Positions 27,698-29,050 of a stretch of DNA of 33,724 nt are shown in pieces. The stretch covers positions 1 through 33,724 of the forward strand of contig JACQQA010000011.1 of NCBI GenBank assembly GCA_016207245.1, in the 5' to 3' direction. Source of the DNA: Candidatus Magasanikiibacteriota bacterium (GTDB lineage: Bacteria > Patescibacteriota > Patescibacteriia > Magasanikbacterales > UBA922). Within the stretch, counting starts at the first letter, position 1, and every line of letters begins with the position of its first letter. The notes below the pieces were generated by a model, which was not told where the DNA came from, ran no database searches, and was given only the letters and a program-made list of their open reading frames with translations. Position numbers and translations under genes: made by a program.

Positions 27698-27720
27698 CCC
27701 GCTTCGTGGCGGGTTTGTTT
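27691..27720 (-). terminator. Terminator after rplK
   Basis: Stem AACCCGC / GCGGGTT around TTCGTG (27696-27715); on the minus strand it is followed by GTTTTATT. Ends the secE-nusG-rplK transcript. Confidence 0.8.
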
Positions 27721-27746
27721 CGTGTTCTATGTTTAATGTTCCATGT

Positions 27747-28172
27747 TTAATCCTCAACGGTAACGCCCATCTGTCTGGCGGTTCCCGCAAGAGATCGCAC
27801 GGCCGAGTCAAGATCTTCCGTATTCATGTCTTTCATTTTCACTTCCGCGATTTTTTTAAGCTGGGCTTTGGTGATTTTACCGACCTTGTCTTTCAATGGG
27901 TTCGCGGCGCCTTTTTGCAGGCCAATCGCTTTTTTGATCAGTTCGCTGGCCGGCGCTACTTTGGTTATGAAGCTGAAAGATCTGTCTTCATAAACATTAA
28001 TAATCACCGGCACGGTTTCGCCTTTGCGGTCTTGAGTTTTTTCGTTGAATTCTTTGCAAAAGCCCTGGATATTCACGCCATGCTGGCCCAGAGCCGGTCC
28101 GACCGGTGGCGCCGGATTAGCCGCTCCGCCGGTAATTTGCAGTTTGATTTGGGTTACCAATTTCTTTGCCAT
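27747..28172 (-). CDS. rplK: Ribosomal protein L11
   Basis: 141 residues, standard length. It binds the GTPase-associated centre of 23S rRNA. Visible: the N-terminal [21 protein letters not shown] motif broken only by normal spacing, [15 protein letters not shown], and the RNA-binding C-terminal domain with [30 protein letters not shown] and the terminal [13 protein letters not shown]. It follows nusG in most bacteria; here a 321-base element with inverted-repeat ends separates them. Confidence 0.97.
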
Positions 28173-28180
28173 ATTTAGTA

Positions 28181-28501
28181 GACTATGGACGATAGACTAT
28201 TGACTATGGTATGTTGAGAAGCCTCTTTTGAGAGCAACACCCAAGCAACTATCTATTGTCTTTGTAAATAATTTATCAATGAATGGATTTTTTTACTCAA
28301 TAATTCTGATTTTCTATCCGAACCTTCCGTAATATTCAGCATTACAGACAACCCGGCGCGTCTTAACTGATTTGATAATGCAAATAACTCCTCTTTTGGG
28401 AATTGTTTTGTAACTGAGTAGATTAGATTTGCATATTCTCTAGCCAGTTTCCAAATCTCCAAGTTTTCAAATCTATAGACCATAGTCTATCGTCCATAGT
28501 C
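28181..28501. mobile_element. Inverted-repeat-bounded element carrying a four-helix-bundle gene
   Basis: The ends are perfect 20-base inverted copies: GACTATGGACGATAGACTAT at 28181-28200 and its exact complement at 28482-28501. They enclose one gene and sit between nusG and rplK, a junction that is normally compact. The arms carry internal repeats of GACTAT. This architecture recalls the intervening sequences in 23S rRNA genes of Leptospira and others, which are flanked by inverted repeats and encode the same protein family. Mobility is inferred; no target-site duplication could be identified with certainty. Confidence 0.7.
28253..28483 (-). CDS. Four-helix-bundle (S23 / IVS-type) protein, apparently shortened
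   Basis: 76 residues. The sequence FENLEIWKLAREYANLIY, then FPKEELFALSNQLRRAGLSVMLNITEGSDRKS is diagnostic of the 'four helix bundle protein' / S23 intervening-sequence family, which usually has 115-130 residues. After GSDRKSELLSKK the family resemblance stops and the frame ends in INYLQRQ. The break lies at a run of seven A in the sense strand (28294-28288): one extra A opens a frame that runs on for 27 more residues to a stop at 28197, within the left repeat arm. The gene may be a decayed copy, or use slippage. The biochemical role of the family is unknown; it binds nucleic acid or partner reverse transcriptases in some systems. Confidence 0.8.
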   Translation of the reverse strand: MVYRFENLEIWKLAREYANLIYSVTKQFPKEELFALSNQLRRAGLSVMLNITEGSDRKSELLSKKIHSLINYLQRQ

Positions 28502-28504
28502 CAC

Positions 28505-29050
28505 TTATATTTTTTTCACCTGCAACGCATCCAGTTCCACCGGCGTTTCCCGGCCGAACATGTTGACCAGAACTTTGACTTTTCCGCGTTCTTCATCCAC
28601 ATTGGAAATTTTGCCTTCAAAATTTTTGAACGGGCCGTCAGTGATGCGGACAGCTTCGTTGAGCGACACGTCAATTTGGTGTGTTGGTTCGTCCACACCC
28701 ATTCTTTTTTGCAAAACATCTATCTCTTTCTGGTCAATCGGGGTTGGCGTGGTGCCGGAGCCGATGAAGCCTGTAACATTCGGAGTATTTCTGACCACAT
28801 ACCATGAATCATCGGTAACAATCATCTCTACCAAAACATAGCCCGGGAAGATTTTTTCTTCAATCACATTCCGTTTGCCGTTTTTGATTTTAATCTTTTT
28901 TTCTTTCGCCACCAAGACGCCGAAGATTTTGTCGCGCATGTCAAAAGATTCAATTCTTTGTTCCAAATTGCGCTTGACGTTTTCTTCATAGCCGCTGTAG
29001 GTATGCAATACATACCAGCGTCGGCCCAATTGGAGGTTTTGTTTAGCCAT
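28505..29050 (-). CDS. nusG: Transcription termination/antitermination factor NusG
   Basis: 181 residues. The NGN domain begins GRRWYVLHTYSGYEENVKRNLEQRIES and contains the central KIFPGYVLVEM motif and RNTPNVTGFIG; the C-terminal KOW domain starts near VRITDGPFKNFEGKI and ends KVLVNMFGRETPVELDALQVKKI. It links RNA polymerase to the ribosome or Rho. It is four bases downstream of secE; the ATG is preceded by AT-rich sequence with no Shine-Dalgarno. Confidence 0.97.
   Translation of the reverse strand: MAKQNLQLGRRWYVLHTYSGYEENVKRNLEQRIESFDMRDKIFGVLVAKEKKIKIKNGKRNVIEEKIFPGYVLVEMIVTDDSWYVVRNTPNVTGFIGSGTTPTPIDQKEIDVLQKRMGVDEPTHQIDVSLNEAVRITDGPFKNFEGKISNVDEERGKVKVLVNMFGRETPVELDALQVKKI

Follow-up and report, generated by a model that had tools for sequence, protein, structure and literature searches.

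An S23 gene bounded by inverted heptad arms between nusG and rplK: a probable IVS-type element outside rRNA

The closest described systems are the intervening sequences (IVSs) of 23S rRNA in Leptospira and Coxiella, in which long inverted ends surround a gene of the S23 family within about 420–430 nt (PMC4990558). The ORF of these IVSs is often decayed. In Coxiella, tandem GACAGAT heptamers lie upstream of the S23 start, and RNase III cuts the IVS in vitro; the authors thought that S23p is not made in vivo, and any role for the protein is therefore weakened (PMC4990558). Some rRNA insertions in CPR bacteria also encode 23S_rRNA_IVP (PMC11270868), IVP genes have been recorded in cas loci (PMC3936711), and the Avd and bAvd proteins of diversity-generating retroelements have a homologous four-helix-bundle fold (PMC10053308). 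An accepted origin of rRNA IVSs is lacking, and free-standing S23 genes ("four helix bundle protein") are small, common and unexplained, in CPR as in many other bacteria. The units described here resemble the rRNA IVSs in their long inverted ends, their size, the heptamers beside the S23 start, the presence of an RNase III gene and the decay of the ORF. They differ in that they lie between protein genes, are known from sequence, have arms of 7–9-nt units that vary between loci, and occur in many copies per genome. In a search confined to the open literature, no description of arms around free-standing S23 genes was found, so that priority is uncertain.

The window, the whole stretch of DNA analysed here, comprises 33,724 nt of a Candidatus Magasanikiibacteriota genome (contig JACQQA010000011.1, positions 1–33,724). 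A sequence-only reading had described in it an S23/IVS-type gene between perfect 20-base inverted repeats, inserted in a protein operon, with ends that could fold into a long hairpin in the transcript. The ORF at 28253–28483 on the minus strand encodes a 76-residue protein that matched the 23S-rRNA intervening-sequence-protein profiles PF05635 (67.7 bits, cut-off 33.8, at profile positions 1–55 of 106 only) and TIGR02436 (60.1 bits, cut-off 24), bearing out the family assignment. The neighbours were also as described: nusG (28505–29050, minus strand) lies upstream and rplK, encoding L11 (27747–28172, minus strand), downstream, both identified as ORFs in a neighbourhood conserved in relatives. 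S23 was the only ORF between the arms, and no transposase encoded in the unit was found. Since the unit sits between nusG and rplK and not in an rRNA gene, it was rejected as an rRNA IVS by location; no rRNA was detected in the window, nor in a scan of 40 further S23 loci. The Avd protein of a diversity-generating retroelement was likewise rejected, the scores being 20.9 bits against a cut-off of 40 for bAvd and 17.4 against 80 for DivGenRetAVD. High S23 copy number needs no reverse transcriptase, which is absent from many high-copy genomes and was discarded as a required partner.

The perfect 20-nt inverted repeat, GACTATGGACGATAGACTAT, is located at 28181–28200 (+) and 28482–28501 (−), and extends to 31 nt at 90% identity (28177–28207 and 28475–28505). 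Arm-like matches were never obtained from shuffled window sequence. The transcript strand folded with z = −5.0, 27.6 kcal/mol below the mean of the shuffles, and the arms formed one long stem, in agreement with the proposed hairpin and with the complementary termini of an IVS. By repeat search, pattern scan and period analysis, the 5′ arm in gene sense (28475–28505, minus strand) was resolved into degenerate 7-nt units, GGACTAT GGACGAT AGACTAT GGTCTAT; its first base is at the nusG stop codon, and the S23 start codon lies within it. The 3′ arm, found by repeat search (28177–28207, minus strand), ends just upstream of the rplK start. The best period of the arms was 7, with an identity of 0.71, giving head-to-tail 7-nt units as in the heptanucleotide STRRs. 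A pattern search, the method behind all our genome-wide statements on the source genome, returned no further copy of the 20-mer at ≤3 mismatches in the whole 687 kb.

Compared with two genes at the same site (L009 and L036), the window S23 gene has lost 129 nt (43 codons) internally and in frame, the DNA alignment placing the deletion junction at 28305–28306 on the minus strand. The product, 76 of ~120 residues, falls short of a complete four-helix domain. Because of this loss, which is reflected in the partial profile match, the protein is probably dead. The arms probably still pair. Inside the window arms lies a hairpin with an invariant GCTTCT (28213–28249, minus strand), identified upstream of rplK by alignment of the relatives' junctions and kept also at relatives' sites without S23; that the arms enclose this host hairpin argues against a simple block insertion. 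Members of the family keep the hairpin whether or not S23 is present, and it is possibly an undescribed, putative rplK–rplA (L1) leader. No Rfam family matched either the window unit or the rplK hairpin.

Relatives for comparison of the nusG–rplK junction were found by a NusG search. Armed S23 genes were present there in the window genome, G001, G017, G010 and G023, and likewise at loci L064 and L088; six relatives of the window genome had S23 at this junction, and the genes of the same-site relatives are full length. The junction held arms and a gene fragment in G019, arms only in G020, gene-less arms of a 9-nt type in five other relatives, and mostly a short spacer in the remainder. Empty nusG–rplK junctions, which the sequence-only reading had asked for, were thus found. 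Identical 20-base ends in relatives, for which it had also asked, were not: the arms vary in sequence between relatives yet stay complementary. The perfect 20-base ends are therefore real in the window, but there is no fixed 20-mer, the relatives carrying different 7-nt arrays, and an exact 20-mer was abandoned as a signature of the element, having no other genomic copy and no counterpart in the relatives' arms. An arm's own partner was a better match than the swapped arm of an ortholog in 19/21 pairs at nusG–rplK and 21/28 at sdhA–sdhB; the same comparison failed at panB–rluD (4/15) and at two sites with two loci each. Because all S23 proteins at nusG–rplK form a single clade, the copy there is one old insertion in an ancestor of this CPR family that has been inherited, is decaying and has been lost repeatedly. 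One same-site locus, L036 in G001, has an extra complete hairpin of the same heptads 5′ of the S23 start (1970–2075), making three arms.

This single clade, together with same-site clades in many genomes, would also fit a vertically kept host gene whose flanking hairpins serve as transcription attenuators or mRNA-stability elements. Such an explanation is very unlikely, given that S23 genes are dispersed, with up to 16 copies per related genome, and patchy in their presence, and that closely related operons have empty alleles; it is contradicted by the presence/absence alleles of plasmids.

These alleles were found at three sites in closely related Nostoc plasmids, where the complete arm–S23–arm unit is cleanly inserted at stop/start junctions. 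At site B, where the flanks are ~97–99% identical, four plasmids have an empty spacer of 13 nt, TTAACAAATAA(A/T)T, and two are occupied (427 nt in L262, 441 nt in L259) by arms of CAGAATTCAGGAGTCAG and its complement around S23; L267 retains the arms and a gene stump. Site A measures 3 nt in five plasmids versus 420–602 nt in L255, L271 and L272, and site C 505 nt in L261, where in the other plasmids the stop and start codons overlap or almost do so. The units at these three different sites share 79–83% DNA identity, and the arms of the Nostoc plasmid units are built of the heptads GGGAGTA, CAGGAGT and ACAGGTG. At positions 850–1453 of L272, a gene-less inverted-arm pair of the unit's own arm type interrupts the S23 gene. 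Candidate target duplications (GTAA, TTCTA and ATG) at three Nostoc sites are confounded by stop and start codons and by the repeat units themselves. Taken together, the alleles leave little doubt about the existence of the arm–S23–arm unit or about its nature as a discrete insertion; the earlier claim of an insertion in a protein operon is upheld.

We then scored arms by comparing the 250 nt upstream of each S23 gene with the 300 nt downstream, with a threshold of ≥13 and a strict threshold of ≥17. Among 116 distinct S23 genes of related CPR genomes, which include orthologs and so are not independent loci, 84% had arms at ≥13 and 55% at ≥17, versus 4% and 0%, respectively, of 74 neighbouring genes used as controls. 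In a wider set of 79 S23 genes from Bacteroidota, Clostridia, Planctomycetota, Omnitrophota, Desulfobacterota and other CPR, collected with a single S23 protein query and biased towards that protein's relatives, arms were present in 81% versus 4.8% of mismatched flank pairs, with units such as AGGCAAC, TAGCGGA and AGTTGACG. The unit length in the related-CPR set was 7 nt in 49 loci, 9 nt in 20 and 8 nt in 17, and the pooled lag-7 identity of the arms was 0.49 versus 0.32 after shuffling. The arms directly adjoin the S23 ORF, and the start codon is in or near the 5′ arm. The 16–19% of S23 genes below the threshold include truly armless loci (L145, L147 and L080) and others that are armless by the cut-off only (L008, L064 and L088). 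The unit is thus no rarity; short-period inverted arms are the usual anatomy of S23 genes.

The similarity of arms was correlated with that of the proteins (Mantel r 0.38, permutation maximum 0.08). For S23 proteins of ≥60% identity that occupy different sites, the mean arm cosine was 0.49–0.59, versus 0.12 for unrelated S23 proteins at one site. The arm sequence thus goes with the S23 clade and not with the site, and the ends belong to the gene, as had been supposed.

Arms of the same kind also occur without a gene. In the window genome, arrays of GAACATN, the arm type of another S23 locus of that genome (L003), were found within four genes (lysS, ileS, one for a copper ATPase and one for a membrane protein). 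A further array of this type, detected by the genome pattern scan, follows rplK and starts at its stop codon (27716–27755, minus strand). A reversed-pattern control also matched at 3 mismatches, and arrays were kept only at 0–1 mismatch or when seen in context. These gene-less arrays imply that, even with no gene between them, arms can persist or spread. Two of the arrays are in-frame heptad arrays, in lysS (L233, C8:34955–35029) and ileS (L232, C2:61355–61387), coding for peptides such as VTWNMEHGT. Rickettsia palindromic elements are small palindromic repeats that lie in frame within protein genes, much like these arrays; unlike them, they have a conserved element sequence of their own rather than short tandem units, and no S23 gene. 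Heptameric repeats (GGGAATC and GGGGA(C/T)T) are abundant and intergenic in Xanthomonas and Nostoc, occurring as inverted pairs in Xanthomonas, and were described with no mention of S23 (PMC4692102); Nostoc trnL introns have heptad stems at P6b (PMC4476775). Both the STRRs and the trnL P6b heptads share with S23 arms their degenerate tandem 7-nt units. They differ in having been described without an S23 gene, and the link is drawn here for the plasmid loci only.

Such repeats raise the possibility that the window arms belong to a commonplace heptanucleotide repeat of the interspersed, REP- or STRR-like kind, and that the gene lies between them by chance. The GAACATN arrays in lysS, ileS and the Cu-ATPase gene and after rplK, the gene-less 9-nt-type pairs at nusG–rplK in five relatives, and the abundance of 7-nt repeats in Nostoc and Xanthomonas (PMC4692102) could all be read in this way. 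However, the frequency of arms at S23 genes (84% versus 4% of controls), their association with the gene across sites, and the joint gain of arms and gene in Nostoc plasmids already contradict this reading. The sequence-only reading had named as its own undoing an ordinary genome-wide intergenic repeat, with relatives' genes lacking repeats; what we found was arms that follow the clade and a window arm type that occurs nowhere else in its genome.

S23 was in sense between co-directional neighbours in 126 of 128 cases (76:0 and 50:2), versus 57:9 for the small genes of these loci that served as controls, by a crude classing in which real sense cases are missed because antisense ORFs can outrank the true neighbour; the window locus itself was scored +−, an antisense ORF being longer than rplK. 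The arms start at a median of 1 nt past the upstream stop and end at a median of ~10 nt ahead of the next start. Host junctions, with gene names read off the protein sequences, include nusG–rplK, gatC–gatA, atpG–atpD, groES–groEL, sdhA–sdhB, panB–rluD, ybaB–recR and ruvA–ruvB, and retention has been long and vertical at nusG–rplK, ybaB–recR, sdhA–sdhB and panB–rluD.

Orientation bears on the somewhat unlikely alternative of a mobile element acting at the DNA level, in which S23, helped by an enzyme of the host or one acting in trans, would recognize the arms as transposition ends, and the transcript hairpin would be incidental. The clean presence/absence alleles, the gene-less derivative with the same arms and the possible 3–5-nt target duplications are consistent with this. 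Y1 transposases (PF01797), which act in trans in REP/RAYT systems, were present in 17/21 genomes with ≥5 S23 copies and in 4/25 with fewer, a correlation across 46 genomes of family f1 that may be confounded by phylogeny. However, symmetric ends predict both orientations, at odds with the 126:2 sense ratio, and the arms have no conserved end sequence. Moreover, Y1 transposases are missing from four genomes with 7–10 copies (G041, G012, G053 and G059), reverse transcriptase is missing from many high-copy genomes, and the S23 fold (homologues 2gsc and 2rld) has no known nuclease site. Similarly, a MITE or insertion sequence is like the S23 unit in its inverted ends, discrete insertion and gene-less derivatives, but the S23 unit has no transposase and no conserved ends, and is strictly sense.

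Because of the sense bias, the use of host operons, apparently without promoters of the unit's own, and the paired ends, we favor a mobile element of the IVS type that lies outside rRNA and whose arms base-pair with each other once transcribed; to this we assign a probability of about 0.6. An intact unit of ~420–500 nt has one S23 gene between a 5′ array of degenerate 7–9-nt tandem repeats and a 3′ array complementary to it. It occupies the spacer of co-directional genes, in sense and from the upstream stop, so that S23 would be read from the host operon mRNA. The arms would then close into a long hairpin whose loop holds S23, the stem would be cut by RNase III or an enzyme of that kind, as in rRNA IVSs, and the insert would leave the mRNA without ligation, the flanking cistrons remaining functional; we give even odds to this sequence of events. 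At nusG–rplK such excision, put forward in the sequence-only reading, would separate the two mRNAs. Stem cutting without ligation would explain why the family is tolerated at the tips of rRNA helices as well as between cistrons. An RNase III gene was found in 43/46 genomes of the family, including the window genome. Mismatches within the arms were G·U in 169 cases and A·C in 130 (p = 0.028, neither data set being significant alone), and this weak G·U excess and the near-complete sense orientation are the only signs of action at the RNA level.

More weakly, we infer that an S23 pentamer recognizes its own repeat units and takes part in the spread of the unit, because the arm type goes with the protein clade. 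The solved S23 relatives 2gsc and 2rld are uncharacterized proteins deposited as five chains, and solved homologues were reported as a pentamer (Lin 2006, as given in a citing paper). The same structural data could also point to autoregulation, in which a ring-shaped, RNA-binding S23 binds its own 7-nt units, one per subunit, and thereby controls both how it is translated and how stable the host mRNA is; some copies would have been domesticated. The arm type that follows the clade across sites, the start codon in or near the 5′ arm and the old vertical retention at nusG–rplK, ybaB–recR, sdhA–sdhB and panB–rluD would all suit this explanation, which we nevertheless consider distinctly improbable, since arms are still present at loci whose protein has decayed or disappeared (the window, L019 and L020) and common descent alone accounts for the association with the clade.

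The common anatomy of one gene, a pair of short-period inverted arms and sense insertion in an operon ties free-standing S23 genes to the rRNA IVSs, and the long-standing proposal of a role for the S23 ORF in mobility becomes directly testable in Nostoc or Flavobacterium. A broader proposal, possible but doubtful, is that a widespread class of transposase-less elements depends on S23/IVP proteins for mobility or maintenance. Each clade would recognize its own 7–9-nt unit, and the elements would enter in sense only at stop/start junctions, be trimmed from the transcript as hairpins and shed gene-less arrays. A single element family would then include, as members or as debris, the rRNA IVSs and the heptanucleotide repeats, long without an explanation, of Nostoc, Xanthomonas and CPR genomes. 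The anatomy of the unit also offers a possible origin for the cyanobacterial and xanthomonad heptanucleotide repeats, for which the evidence here consists of the Nostoc plasmid loci. It explains the presence of S23 in cas, groES–groEL, atp, sdh and ribosomal operons by insertion and not by functional partnership, and the reported associations of S23 with CRISPR may be insertions.

At two loci of cyanobacterial plasmids (L253 and L254), S23 lies between cas6 and cas4; the array of L253 is made of 8-nt AAAAGCTA units and that of L254 of ACAGGTG heptads.
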